DNA from: Agromyces mangrovi
Lineage (GTDB): Bacteria; Actinomycetota; Actinomycetes; Actinomycetales; Microbacteriaceae
NCBI RefSeq assembly: GCF_030296695.1
Contig: NZ_AP027737.1
Coordinates: 1,860,001-1,924,000 of the forward strand
Direction of reading: 5' to 3'
Length of the DNA stretch: 64,000 bases
The notes under the pieces are model-generated. The model was not told the DNA's origin. It searched no databases and saw nothing but the letters and a program-made list of their open reading frames with translations. This document shows, one piece after another, positions 12,362-48,344 of this stretch; within the stretch, counting starts at the first letter, position 1, and each line of letters begins with the position of its first letter. The position numbers and the translations under genes were made by a program.

Positions 12362-12464
12362 CCGCGCCCCGCGGCCCGCCCACCCGCTCCGCACCGGCCC
12401 GCCGAACTCACACGGGCACGCGCTGCAGCGCGGGCCGGTGCGATCGGCACGTGCCGGTGGTTAC

Positions 12465-12505
12465 GGCACGTCGAACTCAGCGTGCCGAACCGACTTCGAC
12501 GTGCC
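12465..12505. repeat. Palindromic intergenic element, GGCACGTCGAA family copy 1
   Basis: Perfect 11-bp arms GGCACGTCGAA (12465-12475) and TTCGACGTGCC (12495-12505) enclose 19 bases that include another GTGCC. Further GGCACGTGCC-like boxes flank it on both sides, so the region from about 12444 to 12530 is rich in CACGTG-type half-sites. The element lies between prpC and the thioesterase gene. It resembles the element at 25471-25529. Confidence 0.6.
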
Positions 12506-12604
12506 GAACCCACGGGCACGTGCCCGACGGGCCCGGCCGAGGGTGGCGGAAGCGCACAAGGGGGCGCGGCGCCGCGGCGGGCGGGCTTGTGCGAGAGCGC
12601 CAAC

Positions 12605-13267: not shown

Positions 13268-14389
13268 CTAGCTGACCGCCTTCTTCGGCACCACGACCTC
13301 GCGGATGATGAGGAGGATGCCCGCGGCGATCGGGATCGCGACCAGCGCGCCCGGCAGGCCGGCGAGCGTGCCACCGGCGAGGGCGGCGATCAGCACGAGC
13401 GAACCCGGCACCGAGACCGCCTTGCTCATCACGCGCGGGGTGAGGATGTACGCCTCGACCTGCATGTAGATGAGCATGAAGATCAGCACGATGATCGCGG
13501 CCGTCGGCGAGACGAACAGCGCCACGATCGTCATGGCGATCGTGGTGAGCACGGTACCGATGAGCGGGATCAGCGTGATCAGGAACGCGACCGATGCGAT
13601 GACGATGGCGTACGGCACGCCGACGATGATCAGCAGGATGAGGCTGTAGGTGGCGTTGAAGAACGCCAGGATCACCATGCCGCTGAGGTAGCGCCCGATG
13701 GAGTCCATGATCCGCTCGGCGTAGCCGACGACCGTCTCGCGGTGCGAGGCCGAGATGAGGGAGTAGCTGGCCTTCTTCATGGTGTCGAGGGTCGCCACGA
13801 AGTAGATCGTGAGGATGAAGATGAAGAACCCGCTCGAGATGGCGTTCACGACCGTGCCCGCGACCGCGAGCGCGCCGCCGCCGACGGTCGCCCACGTGTT
13901 CGGGTCGGTCACGAGGTCGAGCAGCCAGTCGTAGAGGCCCGAGATCGCGCCGCCGGTGAAGTCCTCGACCGCGAGGTACCAGTCCTGCTGCTGGATGTCG
14001 GCGACCGCCTGGGGCAGGCCCTGGATGAACTCGACGGCCTGCGTGACGATCAGCGGGATGACCAGCAGCAGCATGCCGACGACCACGCCGACGAAGAGCA
14101 GGATGACCGTGACGATCGCCCAGCCGCGCTTCATGCCGCGCCGCTGGAACCAGCGGATCAGCGGGTCGAGCCCGAGCGAGATGAACAGCGCGGCGAACAC
14201 CGCGAAGATCACCGACGACAGCCCGAGCGCCGCCTGCGCGAGGAACAGCGCGAGCAGCACGCCGAGCGTGGCGACGAACGCCCACCGGAACGGGTGGTTG
14301 CTCATCAGGCTCACGATGGGTCGTGGCGCACGCTCCGCCGGCTCGGTGACGTCACTGGCATCGGTGGCGCGGCGCGATGACCTCTTCAT
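13268..14389 (-). CDS. AI-2E family transporter (PerM-like membrane protein)
   Basis: A 373-residue polytopic membrane protein with about seven hydrophobic helices and the family pattern: paired N-terminal helices, a periplasmic-like segment near residues 110-160, then AIVIASVAFLITLIPLIGT and VEAYILTPRVMSKAVSVPG. This AI-2E/PerM superfamily exports or imports small solutes; some members are Na+(Li+)/H+ antiporters, so autoinducer-2 transport should not be assumed. TAGACT lies six bases before the ATG on the minus strand, so the message is probably leaderless. Confidence 0.9.
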   Translation of the reverse strand: MKRSSRRATDASDVTEPAERAPRPIVSLMSNHPFRWAFVATLGVLLALFLAQAALGLSSVIFAVFAALFISLGLDPLIRWFQRRGMKRGWAIVTVILLFVGVVVGMLLLVIPLIVTQAVEFIQGLPQAVADIQQQDWYLAVEDFTGGAISGLYDWLLDLVTDPNTWATVGGGALAVAGTVVNAISSGFFIFILTIYFVATLDTMKKASYSLISASHRETVVGYAERIMDSIGRYLSGMVILAFFNATYSLILLIIVGVPYAIVIASVAFLITLIPLIGTVLTTIAMTIVALFVSPTAAIIVLIFMLIYMQVEAYILTPRVMSKAVSVPGSLVLIAALAGGTLAGLPGALVAIPIAAGILLIIREVVVPKKAVS

Positions 14390-14913: not shown

Positions 14914-15034
14914 GATGACCTCCAGTCGAGACCTCTGCGTCGATTCCAGCCTATTCCCGCGCGGCCCGCGGGGCCAGCACGACGCCCCCGATCGTGGTCG
15001 GTTCCGGGGCCCGGCGACCGCTAGGATCTTGGGC

Positions 15035-25444: not shown

Positions 25445-25470
25445 CGTCGCGCGTCGACGCTCCCGATTCG

Positions 25471-25529
25471 GGCACGTCGAGATCGTTCGGGCACGCCTAC
25501 TCGGCGTGCCGGAGCGATTTCGACGTGCC
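25471..25529. repeat. Nested palindromic element, GGCACGTCGA family copy 2
   Basis: Outer arms at 25471-25485 and 25515-25529 match at 14 of 15 positions; inner arms GGCACGCC (25490-25497) and GGCGTGCC (25503-25510) match perfectly. It lies in the convergent interval between putA and a GntR gene, so it could end transcription from both sides. The outer arms share GGCACGTCGA and the order of boxes with the element at 12465-12505. Confidence 0.65.
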
Positions 25530-25549
25530 GGACAGCGGGCGGGCGAGCG

Positions 25550-28399: not shown

Positions 28400-28415
28400 C
28401 ACCAGGGCGCTGAAG

Positions 28416-28460
28416 CGCACGGATGCTGCGTGCCGACGCTGAGCACGCAGCATCCGTGCG
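28416..28460. terminator. Perfect 18-bp stem hairpin after LLM gene
   Basis: Arms 28416-28433 and 28443-28460 are perfectly complementary with a 9-base loop, 17 bases after the stop. There is no T-run, as is common for actinobacterial terminators. The arms contain CGGATGC, close to the recurrent GGATGCC oligomer. Confidence 0.65.
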
Positions 28461-28629
28461 TCTCAATCGGTATCGCGCCGCGCTCGGGCATGTGACACTG
28501 GAAGCGGCGTCCCGCACCGCCTGCGGGGCTCGAGGAGAGTGACCTGGTCCGCCGACACCCTGCGGCGTCGCCGCGGCTGCCGGTCCTCGCCGGCACCGTC
28601 GCACCGCCGCCCCGAGTGAAGGAGGCGCG

Positions 28630-29544
28630 ATGTCGATCGCTACCGACCACCCCACCGACGACCGGACCCTGACCGCCGCCGAGTCGGTCGGCCCGACCGC
28701 CGAGACCGCGACCACCACCGACCGCCCCGAGCGCACCGCCGTGCGCAAGTCGGTGCTGATGTGCCGCCCCGAGCACTTCACGGTCGTGTACCGCATCAAC
28801 CCGTGGATGAACCCCGCACTGCCGACCGACACGACCCTCGCCGTGCAGCAGTGGGAGGCCCTCTACGAGACCTACCTGCAGCTCGGGTACGACGTGCAGC
28901 TCATCGACCCGGTCGAGGGCCTGCCCGACATGGTCTACGCCGCGAACGGCGGCTTCGTGCTCGACGGCATCGCCTACGGCGCGAGCTTCACCCACCCCGA
29001 GCGCCAGGCCGAGGGCCCCGCCTACATGGACTGGTTCGGCGACGCCGGCTTCGACGTACGCCGCCCGCTCGAGATCAACGAGGGCGAGGGCGACTTCCTG
29101 CTCGTCGGCGACGCGATCCTCGCGGGCACCGGGTTCCGCAGCGACTCGCGTTCGCACGAGGAGATCGGGCGCGTGTTCGGCCGCGAGGTCGTCACCCTCC
29201 GCCTCATCAACCCCAGCTACTACCACCTCGACACCGCGCTCGCCGTGCTCGACCCGACGCCCGGCCGCGAGCACATCGCCTACCTGCCGAGCGCGTTCGA
29301 CGAGGCATCCCGCACCCTGCTCGAGGCCCGCTACCCCGACGCGATCATCGTGTCGGAGGAGGACGCGGCGATCCTCGGCCTCAACTCGTTCAGCGACAAC
29401 CGCAACGTCGTGATCGCGTCGCGCGCCACCGGCTTCGCCGAGCAGCTGCGCGCCAACGGCTACACCCCGATCGGCGTCGACCTCTCCGAGCTGCTGCTCG
29501 GCGGCGGCGGCGTCAAGTGCTGCACCCTGGAGCTGCGCCGATGA
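28630..29544 (+). CDS. Dimethylargininase / arginine deiminase-like hydrolase (DDAH)
   Basis: A 304-residue amidinotransferase-fold protein. DDAH enzymes turn methylated arginine into citrulline and methylamines. Visible are the substrate loop MVYAANGGFVLDG, NEGEGDFLLVGD, the histidine segment SYYHLDTALAVLDP and the terminal catalytic cysteine in GGGGVKCCTLELRR. The first 30 residues are low-complexity Thr/Asp/Ala. It is coupled by ATGA to rocD, so it supplies ornithine-related catabolism; a bacterial enzyme that releases ornithine from arginine directly is an alternative. AAGGAGGCGCG precedes the ATG. Confidence 0.85.
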   Translation: MSIATDHPTDDRTLTAAESVGPTAETATTTDRPERTAVRKSVLMCRPEHFTVVYRINPWMNPALPTDTTLAVQQWEALYETYLQLGYDVQLIDPVEGLPDMVYAANGGFVLDGIAYGASFTHPERQAEGPAYMDWFGDAGFDVRRPLEINEGEGDFLLVGDAILAGTGFRSDSRSHEEIGRVFGREVVTLRLINPSYYHLDTALAVLDPTPGREHIAYLPSAFDEASRTLLEARYPDAIIVSEEDAAILGLNSFSDNRNVVIASRATGFAEQLRANGYTPIGVDLSELLLGGGGVKCCTLELRR

Positions 29545-30863
29545 CCACCAACCAGACATCCCGCGCCGCCGAGACCCCCGAGTTCGGAGTGGCATCCGAG
29601 GTCCCCGGGTTCGGTGGGCATCCTTGGGCAGGGACCTCGGATGCCACTCCGAACCCCACGGACAACGCCATCGCCCTCGAGGAGGCGCACGCGGCGCACA
29701 ACTACCACCCGCTCCCGGTCGTCGTCGCATCCGGCGAGGGCGCCTGGGTCACGGATGTCGAGGGGCGACGCTACCTCGACTGCCTCGCCGCCTACTCGGC
29801 GGTGAATTTCGGCCACGGGCATCCGCAGCTGCTCGCCGCCGCGCACGAGCAGCTGGACCGCATCACGCTCACGAGCCGCGCGTTCCACAACGACCGGCTC
29901 GGGCCGTTCGTGACCGAGCTCGCCGAGCTCGTCGGCATGGACATGGTGCTGCCGATGAACACGGGCGCCGAGGCGGTCGAGTCGGCGATCAAGGTCGCTC
30001 GCGCGTGGGGGTACCGGGTCAAGGGCGTGGCGCCGGATGCCGCGAACATCGTCGTGATGGCCGGCAACTTCCACGGCCGCACCACCACGATCGTCTCGTT
30101 CAGCGACGACCCCGACGCGCGCGCCGACTTCGGTCCGTTCACGCCGGGCTTCCGGGCGGTGCCGTACGGCGACGCCGACGCGGTGGCCGACGCGATCGAC
30201 GCGAACACGGTCGCGGTGCTCGTCGAGCCGATCCAGGGCGAGGCGGGCATCGTCGTGCCGCCGGTCGACTTCCTGCCGCGGGTGCGAGAACTGTGCGACG
30301 CGCGCCACGTGCTGCTCATCGCCGACGAGATCCAGTCGGGGCTCGGCCGCACCGGCTCGACGCTCGCGTGCGAGCTCGTCGACGTGCGCCCCGACCTCGT
30401 GACGCTCGGCAAGGCGCTCGGCGGCGGCATCGTGCCGGTGTCGGCCGTCGTCGGCGGCAGCGAGGTGCTCGGCGTGCTCCGGCCGGGCGAGCACGGCTCG
30501 ACGTTCGGCGGCAACCCGCTGGCGGCCGCCGTGGGCCTCGAGGTGGTGCGGATGCTCGCGAGCGGCGAGCCGCAGGCCCGGGCGCGCGAACTGGGTGCGC
30601 GGCTGCGCGCGCGGCTCGACGCGATCGTCGGCCGGGGCGTGGTCGCCGTGCGTGGCGCCGGTCTCTGGGCGGGCATCGACATCGACCCCGTGCTCGGCAC
30701 GGGCCGCGAGGTCTGCGAGGCGCTCATGCGCCGTGGCGTACTGGCGAAGGACACCCACGGGTCGACGATCCGCCTCGCGCCGCCGATCGTCGTCGAGGCA
30801 TCCGACCTCGACTGGGCCGTCGACCAGCTGGAGGCCGTGCTCGCCGAGCTCGCCGCCCGCTGA
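29541..30863 (+). CDS. rocD: Ornithine aminotransferase (RocD)
   Basis: A 440-residue class III PLP aminotransferase that converts ornithine to glutamate semialdehyde. The protein reads AHNYHPLPVVVASGEGAWV, LPMNTGAEAVESAIKVAR, DEIQSGLGRTG and the PLP lysine in VTLGKALGGGIVPVSAV. The start overlaps the upstream stop (ATGA). The N terminus carries about 29 extra residues (from PEFGVASEV on) encoded by a 73-bp palindrome (29582-29654) that stays in frame; the homologous part begins at DNAIALEEAHAAHNYHP. Confidence 0.92.
   Translation: MTTNQTSRAAETPEFGVASEVPGFGGHPWAGTSDATPNPTDNAIALEEAHAAHNYHPLPVVVASGEGAWVTDVEGRRYLDCLAAYSAVNFGHGHPQLLAAAHEQLDRITLTSRAFHNDRLGPFVTELAELVGMDMVLPMNTGAEAVESAIKVARAWGYRVKGVAPDAANIVVMAGNFHGRTTTIVSFSDDPDARADFGPFTPGFRAVPYGDADAVADAIDANTVAVLVEPIQGEAGIVVPPVDFLPRVRELCDARHVLLIADEIQSGLGRTGSTLACELVDVRPDLVTLGKALGGGIVPVSAVVGGSEVLGVLRPGEHGSTFGGNPLAAAVGLEVVRMLASGEPQARARELGARLRARLDAIVGRGVVAVRGAGLWAGIDIDPVLGTGREVCEALMRRGVLAKDTHGSTIRLAPPIVVEASDLDWAVDQLEAVLAELAAR
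29582..29654. repeat. 73-bp palindrome inside rocD coding region
   Basis: Perfect 24-bp arms (29582-29605 and 29631-29654) flank a 25-base centre. Both arms contain the GGCATCCG/CGGATGCC oligomer and the centre has another GGGCATCC. The element lies within codons 15-38 of rocD and adds residues with no counterpart in the family core, while keeping the frame. Confidence 0.8.
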
Positions 30864-47464: not shown

Positions 47465-47496
47465 GTTTGTCTTCCTATCTGTGCGTGCCCGGTCGC

Positions 47497-47553
47497 CGAG
47501 TCGTCATGAAGTGTCGCTATCGCGCGGGCGAAGCGACAGTTCGTGACGACTCG
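47497..47553. repeat. Palindromic element, CGAGTCGTCATG family copy 1
   Basis: Arms at 47497-47518 and 47532-47553 match at 20 of 22 positions around a 13-base loop. The element lies between lldD and lldR and the right arm is read as the last codons of lldR (RESSRTVASPAR). The element at 51881-51938 has nearly the same arms: 19 of 21 bases agree on the left and 20 of 21 on the right. Confidence 0.75.
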
Positions 47554-48344
47554 CGGCCCGGGGCGGGGTCGGGGGTCGGGGTGGGGGAAGGCTGGGCGGG
47601 GGAGGTCTGGTCGGGTGTCGGGAGCAGGGACTCCGCGTAGTACCCGGCGATGTGGTCGCGGATGCGCGCCTCGGCGTCGGCCGAATCGCCGCGCTCGATG
47701 GCGTGGAGGATCTCGCGGTGCTCGTGCCGCAGCCGGTCTGCCGTCTCGCCCCAGTCGCGGATGTGCGGCACGCCCTCGAGCACGTACCCTTCGATCGCGC
47801 TGCGCAGGCCGGCCATCATCGCGGTGATCACCTGGTTGCCGGATGCCTCGGCCAGCGCCACGTGGAACTGCGCGTCGAGCACGAGGAACTCGTCGGGGTC
47901 GAGCCCCGGGGGCTCCATCGCCTCGAGCAGCTGGAGCGCGTCGGAGAGGTCGTGGTCGTGCACCGCGGCGGCGAGCTCGGCGGCGACGGATGCCTCGAGC
48001 AGCAGCCTCGCGCGCACGACGTCGTCGACCGGGAAGCCCTGTGCCGCCACCTGCAGGCGCATGAGCGCCGACATGCCGCCGCGCGGGGTGGCGACGATGA
48101 TCGCGCCGGCGTTCGGGCCCGAGCCGGACCGGGTGCGGATGAGCCCGAGCACCTCGAGCACGCGGAACGCCTCGCGCACGCTCGACCGGCCGACGCCGAG
48201 GTCGGTCGAGAGCTGACGCTCCCCGGGGAGCCGGTCGCCGGGCTGGAGCGATCCGTCGAGGAGTGCGCGCTCGACGTGCTCGAGCACGGTCTTCCAGGCG
48301 CGCGGCGATTCCGTCTCTGGCGGGGTGCCGGGCGTCGTCGTCAC
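47517..48344 (-). CDS. FadR-type GntR regulator of lactate oxidation (LldR-like)
   Basis: A 275-residue FCD-domain GntR protein: RLPGERQLSTDLGVGRSSVREA in the winged helix, then FCD residues DAQFHVALAEASGNQVI and HREILHAIERGDSADAEARI. Its C-terminal 30 residues are Pro/Thr-rich and end in the palindrome at 47497-47553. The start at GTG 48344 follows GAGGAGC. A TNGTNNNACNA site (48361-48371) typical of LldR lies at its promoter. It is read just upstream of lldD. Confidence 0.88.
   Translation of the reverse strand: MTTTPGTPPETESPRAWKTVLEHVERALLDGSLQPGDRLPGERQLSTDLGVGRSSVREAFRVLEVLGLIRTRSGSGPNAGAIIVATPRGGMSALMRLQVAAQGFPVDDVVRARLLLEASVAAELAAAVHDHDLSDALQLLEAMEPPGLDPDEFLVLDAQFHVALAEASGNQVITAMMAGLRSAIEGYVLEGVPHIRDWGETADRLRHEHREILHAIERGDSADAEARIRDHIAGYYAESLLPTPDQTSPAQPSPTPTPDPAPGRESSRTVASPAR

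Follow-up and report, generated by a model that had tools for sequence, protein, structure and literature searches.

The question raised by this locus is how a perfect palindrome came to lie in frame within the 5' coding region of an enzyme gene. The gene is rocD (ornithine aminotransferase) of an Agromyces strain, a soil bacterium with a genome of 3.6 Mb in one contig, and the analysis started from a 64-kb stretch of this genome, hereafter called the window. The initial annotation, made from the letters of the window alone, described a perfect 24-bp palindrome that adds about 29 residues to the protein, and suggested that a mobile hairpin, related to the intergenic palindromes of the window through the word GGATGCC, had entered the gene. 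In this work, the palindrome is compared with the rocD genes of related strains and with similar hairpins across Microbacteriaceae, and the possible origins of these hairpins are weighed.

A perfect palindrome in the N-terminal extension of RocD

The locus comprises two overlapping genes on the forward strand. The upstream operon gene, ddaH (28630..29544), is an open reading frame encoding a dimethylargininase (NCBIfam NF045659, 425.5 bits against a cut-off of 300), and its stop codon is overlapped by the ATG of rocD (29541..30863), the product of which is recognized by TIGR01885 (489.6 bits, cut-off 378.4) and PF00202 (residues 52-434). The rocD frame encodes 440 amino acids from the ATG at 29541 and is open through the hairpin. 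The palindrome described in the initial annotation is indeed there: on the same strand, a left arm (29582..29605) and a right arm (29631..29654), each of 24 nt and 100% complementary, are separated by the 25-nt loop CGGGTTCGGTGGGCATCCTTGGGCA (29606..29630). Together they make 73 nt and occupy codons 14-38 of rocD, the left arm beginning 41 nt from the A of the ATG. Comparison of copies, described below, identifies the loop as the conserved part and the left arm as a part that differs between copies. The limits of the element according to the covariance model, among whose 25 building copies this one is included, are 29580..29656 (77 nt, 26 modelled pairs, loop of 25 nt; 85.6 bits, E 3.2e-16).

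No perfect inverted repeat in the window is longer (arms of at least 12 nt, loops up to 100 nt), and in 464 kb of the Agromyces genome (the window and 20 stretches, loops up to 60 nt) a single longer perfect arm, of 28 nt, was found; in one third-order Markov simulation, used as a control, perfect arms reached 18 nt at most. When folded, the hairpin strand exceeds 200 shuffles of itself in stability (z -4.5). The enzyme core starts 3' of the palindrome, the Pfam aminotransferase match from residue 52 and TIGR01885 from residue 41, which places the palindrome outside the core of RocD.

With distant paralogues included, every one of the 60 genus members has a rocD match; 30 possess a close RocD (77-100% identity), and the loci of these were read. 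In the sister genomes G056 and G038, the ends of ddaH are identical to that of the window, the starts of rocD are nearly identical on both flanks of the insert, and the palindrome is absent. The sister proteins begin with MTTTTDATENAIALEE and MTTTTDATETAIALEE, and alignment with them delimits a hypervariable N-terminal extension of 42 codons in the window gene (29541..29666, forward strand) that is 10 codons long in the sisters. The window protein therefore has 32 additional residues rather than about 29, and these do lie outside the aminotransferase core, as had been proposed. The five best RocD proteins in the database (408 aa, 95-96% identical to that of the window) are likewise 32 residues shorter. 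Conservation of the same residues in distant RocD proteins, named at the outset as the observation that would speak against an insertion, was not found: in the RocDs read, the inserted residues are not conserved.

The N-terminus of RocD is hypervariable throughout the genus and bears other repeats as well, namely tandem repeats in G006, G050 and G051, a TTCGACAAGCTCAGG-type repeat in G014 and a different hairpin in G048. The insert thus appears to sit in a tolerant linker, where it probably costs the protein little. A TTCGACAAGCTCAGG-type repeat also occurs in the rocD linker at locus L012, and the STSSG peptides of proteins P0017, P0034 and P0038, of which only the proteins were read, are what the same DNA word would encode in another frame. 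In another Agromyces (L029), the same linker holds a different hairpin with GAGGAC...GTCCTC ends, which P0041, P0045 and P0047 resemble by peptide only.

The proposed kinship with the intergenic palindromes of the window is not supported. GGATGCC and its complement GGCATCC are very frequent across the 64 kb, with 40 and 48 occurrences (34 and 40 expected from sub-words), the hexamer GGCATC occurring 91 times against 27 expected from dinucleotides, and a search of the window and 400 kb of the same genome with the covariance model gave no second copy at E values up to 1. In the whole Agromyces genome, one place matches the model (E up to 0.01). Relatives of the rocD hairpin are found in other genera and in two other Agromyces strains, and what marks them is the loop rather than the arm. 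The suggestion that a related hairpin entered the gene therefore stands as far as a palindromic element in frame and the existence of relatives are concerned, and finds no support as to the arm as the mark of kinship and the window as the place of the relatives.

Several other hairpins of this genome and its relatives were noticed in passing. Upstream of ddaH (28411-28465) lies a terminator-like hairpin with an 18-bp perfect arm, a 9-nt loop and GGATGC in its arms, which is not a family member by the model. A hairpin with CGAGTCGTCATGAAGTGTCGCT-type arms (47488-47562) recurs at L058 (16953-17010) and L046 (16808-16871) and constitutes a separate dispersed family, and imperfect hairpins at 12431-12539 and 25468-25532 contain GGCACGTCGA-like words and perhaps represent another repeat family. 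Locus L054 carries two long TGAGGGC-based hairpins within 1 kb (14931-15015 and 14089-14149), one with a 28-bp perfect arm.

Constant loop and covarying stem

A pattern search allowing up to four mismatches gave 63 distinct matches. Of these, 39 passed a limit of two loop mismatches and a minimum of 13 paired positions out of 20; removal of near-identical stems left 25 copies. This set was chosen for pairing and for differing stems, so that covariation, not pairing alone, is the test. The copies align without gaps over 77 columns, with 18 of the 25 loop columns invariant, and the mean pairwise identity is 0.895 in the loop and 0.385 in the left arm. Watson-Crick pairs are formed at 20.6 of 22 positions (8.8 with the arms permuted), and standard pairs account for 94.0% of stem cells compared with 50.6% after shuffling, the covariation scores being 1.087 and 0.226, respectively. 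Double changes occur in all 26 pairs, a measure on which 8 of 500 shuffles reach the same value, and pairing drops to 40-47% when the partner is slid by 1-3 columns. Among diverged copies, pairing has been kept largely via double changes.

With up to two mismatches, the loop core is present in 17 of 199 Microbacteriaceae genomes, the backwards control giving 2 of 199; three of the 17 (G184, G245 and G148) have only stem-less, chance-like matches, as exemplified by L142, L150, L152 and L153. Most loop matches with flanks follow a common design, a constant loop between long complementary arms that often differ from copy to copy. The 20-nt loop core of the window recurs unchanged at five places in G160 and at one in G134. 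The covariance model, which combines loop and stem, matches 57 places, spread over 18 of the 199 genomes and 13 of 85 genera, with up to 15 places per genome and the weakest at about 32 bits, which shows that the rocD palindrome is no local accident; it is almost certainly a copy of a hairpin family of Microbacteriaceae that combines a constant loop with a free stem.

Among 60 Agromyces genomes, the model, run with many-genome search filters that lose weak matches, is matched in two only, the window genome and G036, whose rocD copy scores 50 bits despite having been left out of model building. Hairpins occupy the same place of rocD in G030 and G036; that of G030 also has a perfect 24-bp stem and a 25-nt loop, the latter more diverged, and is missed by the model. 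The peptide encoded by the loop, SGFGGHPWAETS, or a variant of it, appears in the further RocD proteins P0107, P0109 and P0132. In the class outside Microbacteriaceae, a longer pattern with three mismatches matches 3 of 373 genomes, and the printed copies pair at 4, 5 and 10 of 20 positions, as expected by chance. The exact loop-core pattern had no match in viral contigs, none was found in phage records, and the six plasmid matches (E 0.6) are chance-like, none being credible. No Rfam family was matched at the gathering score between 27000 and 32000 of the window, and 20 loci gave RNase P only; the 32 sub-threshold matches in the window are mostly to microRNA hairpins.

The relation between copies of one genome varies. 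The seven copies in G134 have seven different stems, with 22-24 of 24 pairs formed in each and pairwise left-arm identities of 6-16 of 24 positions, and the two that lie face to face within one spacer are alike at 15 of 24 left-arm positions. In G130, 11 of the 14 copies read share one stem, some with small indels, which indicates that copies can multiply whole, stem included. Each of the three genomes of genus g26 has 3-7 copies, some with a common stem. As a separate observation, the word CCCTTCGA is present in all 14 copy regions of G130 (L211-L224), often within a TTCGACAAGCTCAGG-type repeat just 3' of the hairpin, as if the two were co-spreading.

Strand asymmetry and persistence of copies

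Counted on the loop-sense strand, stem mismatches of the ungapped set comprise 15 G.T, 2 A.C and 19 of other kinds, and 43 distinct stems aligned to the model, an alignment that leans towards structure, give 39 G.T and 10 A.C (p 4e-5). Equal numbers of the two are expected in the absence of strand preference, and the excess of G.T points to a folded single strand of the loop sense; one such strand, of RNA or DNA, seems to matter. A strand-biased mutation process may also produce this asymmetry.

A comparison over the 24 inner base pairs covered thirteen pairs of copies, taken as orthologous or as belonging to one gene. Close pairs show 0-2 one-sided arm changes, and several distant pairs differ via paired changes. 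For G247 and G134, compared at the junction of ribE and ribB (both named by eye), roughly half of 200 flanking positions on each side are different, and the hairpin enclosed by these flanks shows three compensated pairs and one one-sided change, with two loop positions different. The rocD copies of G160 and G084 differ by eight pairs changed on both sides, all compensated, and by one changed on one side; between L250 and L253, five of the seven pairs changed on both sides are perfectly compensated. One-sided decay was seen in L207 relative to L205 (nine changes) and in L238 relative to L248 (eight, at a contig end). To judge from these comparisons, some copies are kept in place for long.

Gain, loss and genomic context

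Presence differs between close relatives. In the spacer beside rnpB, two of eight congeners (G134 and G642) have a hairpin, and the other six have matching flanks and no copy. The spacers without a hairpin, which measure 32 bp in G640 and 15 bp in G247 and are longer, with other inverted repeats, in G639, are short or different and alignable only in the genes; no counterpart of the arms of G134 and G642 was seen in the six. A whole element gained in these two genomes, or lost from the other six, fits this picture better than arms made by copying target sequence at this spacer. We also considered inverted duplication of the target, with one arm being the old target and the other its copy; this scheme was dropped because the empty rnpB spacers contain no arm-like sequence and because stems also spread whole, as in g26 and G130. 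It had been suggested by two features of rocD: in G030 and G036, conserved codons of the host gene (RTAA) are overlapped by the outer right arm, so that arms may extend into the host, and CGGATGCCAC, a word of the window right arm, is also present in sister sequence.

Neighbouring genes were surveyed for 43 match rows, listed by hand, with a heuristic ORF caller; the rows are not exactly the 43 stems of the mismatch count, and two mis-set rocD rows (the window and L022) were moved by hand. After this correction, 17 of the 43 rows fall in gaps between convergent genes. In co-directional gaps, the loop-sense strand is antisense to both genes in 10 rows and sense in 2, according to the heuristic ORF calls, and the remaining rows lie in or across called ORFs or between divergent genes. 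In 18 rows, a gene on the opposite strand has its 3' end no more than 50 nt from the right end of the hairpin. Copies occur in both orientations, beside or in many genes, most of those read being outside genes, and no single rule linking orientation to transcription emerged among the 43 rows. Inspection by eye revealed no GC stem followed by a T run, as in intrinsic terminators, after the window copy or most printed stems, the exception being L141 with TTTTT. A CGACC foot, exact or nearly so, follows many of the printed hairpins and is missing from the window copy. The neighbours include uvrB, guaB, guaA, ribB, a groEL-like gene and rocD (all named by eye), as well as rnpB; copies at rocD, ribB and guaB are found in more than one genus, which suggests use in place.

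Besides the window, in-frame hairpins are carried by rocD of G160, G084, G255, G082, G036 and G030, and the rocD copies available as DNA come from three genera. Among 88 further rocD loci of Microbacteriaceae, the model finds a sense hairpin in three (G160, G084 and G082), to which the window and G036 are added; the copies of G030 and G255 were found by eye and pattern, and 15 of 105 rocD matches were left out of the reading. G160 has a second copy, antisense, at the rocD junction, and G144 has a weak rocD match of 29.8 bits. At the end of the loop, all seven rocD copies available as DNA sequence are in the same phase, although by eye the loop is open in all three. Common ancestry, or an exchange of rocD ends, explains this better than a series of random insertions would, and the shared phase hints at such a history.

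Possible origin and mode of action

On balance, we lean towards a low-copy dispersed family of hairpins that is mobile in trans and read through its loop. The constant-loop hairpin, as it may be called, would consist of a near-invariant loop of 25 nt and a stem, about 24-28 bp long, that may take any sequence as long as complementarity is kept. It would represent a non-autonomous mobile element working as a folded single strand of the loop sense; recognition in trans would proceed via the loop, the role of the stem would be to present it, and in this Agromyces a hairpin would have inserted, with the reading frame kept, into the variable N-terminal extension of RocD. Several observations count against this reading: no transposase was linked to the hairpins, no target duplication could be delimited, the Y1 (RAYT-type) transposase PF01797 is absent from all 16 genomes searched (carriers and close non-carriers; the control was positive in 5 of 14 named genomes), some copies have long stayed in place or recur at rocD, ribB and guaB in more than one genus, and the single phase of the rocD copies fits descent or exchange of rocD ends. 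A bolder version, which we regard as speculative and rather doubtful, is that of a new class of mobile or trans-acting hairpins in which the loop is the identity and insertions get or evolve their own stems; the machinery would read the loop of a folded strand and regenerate or renew a complementary stem of arbitrary sequence.

The main rival is a cis-acting hairpin, binding protein or functioning as RNA in gene expression (processing, stability or termination at gene ends and operon junctions), that would have spread by duplication and lateral transfer rather than by mobility of its own. The near-invariance of the loop in carrier genera, the compensatory changes between diverged copies at one locus and the long conservation of some copies, a G.T bias such as G.U pairs would give and the clustering of right ends near 3' ends of other-strand genes all agree with such a role. 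We nevertheless consider it less likely, given the mostly antisense placement in co-directional gaps (on heuristic ORF calls), the patchy presence between relatives, with model matches in only two of the 60 Agromyces genomes (under filters that lose weak matches), and the lack of an Rfam family at the gathering score. The rocD copy in particular might have arrived by recombination, the ddaH-rocD junction of another genus, hairpin included, having replaced the short junction of the Agromyces lineage. Family hairpins in rocD of three genera in the same phase, and the loop peptide in further RocDs, are what such a transfer would leave, but the flanks are those of the sister species almost up to the insert, limiting an imported tract to less than about 130 bp, and none of the copies read has arms identical to those of the window; we rate this origin as improbable.

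Local origin by template switching in replication, converting a quasi-palindrome into a perfect one, is very improbable. It would account for the perfect arms, for the right-arm word shared with the sister and for the outer arm over host codons in G030 and G036; it is refuted for the loop, the core of which is found letter for letter in other genera, beyond what a local event gives, and the rnpB spacers without a hairpin hold no trace of arms. A share of this process in extending or equalising arms may stay. The idea that the palindrome belongs to the known REP/RAYT or Rickettsia-type families has the least to recommend it and is scarcely probable: a dispersed palindrome, often at gene ends and here in frame in a gene as in Rickettsia, fits these families, whereas the non-conserved stems and the absence of Y1 do not, nor does the lack, by eye, of a constant GTAG or CGTC tag in the printed copies, the CGTC end not being seen in the window copy either.

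Comparison with known palindromic repeats

No description of a constant-loop hairpin family of this kind was found in searches of an open-access library. The closest precedent for the place of the insert is provided by the Rickettsia palindromic elements (RPE), which, according to one account, are palindromic repeats inserted in frame within protein-coding genes and end in CGTC (PMC3733652); the hairpins described here differ in having a constant loop and a free stem, with most of the copies read outside genes. REP sequences are likewise small dispersed palindromes, often 3' of genes, and the same account gives them units of 20-40 bp, GTAG or CGTC tags and, in many GTAG families, stems of 6-13 bp with loops of 2-3 (PMC3733652). 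In contrast, constant-loop hairpins have stems of 24-28 bp that are mostly not common to copies, a 25-nt constant loop, few copies per genome and no Y1 transposase in the 16 genomes. Bacterial MITEs are also short non-autonomous elements with inverted repeats. Their terminal repeats are common to the copies, while in the hairpins the arms differ (left-arm identity of 0.385 in the 25 copies chosen for distinct stems, with 11 of 14 copies in G130 sharing a stem) and the middle is shared. A constant loop on a stem of free sequence is reminiscent of the nicking origins of Rep/HUH proteins, in which a conserved loop sits on a variable stem; by analogy, this may serve as a lead only. As an in-frame palindrome outside Rickettsia that is open to testing, the rocD insert poses the question of what reads the loop and from where each copy obtains its complementary stem. 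Known bacterial palindromic repeats are grouped by their stems and ends, whereas in this family it is the loop, and not the stem, that many copies have in common, and similarity-based repeat finders would consequently miss much of the family.
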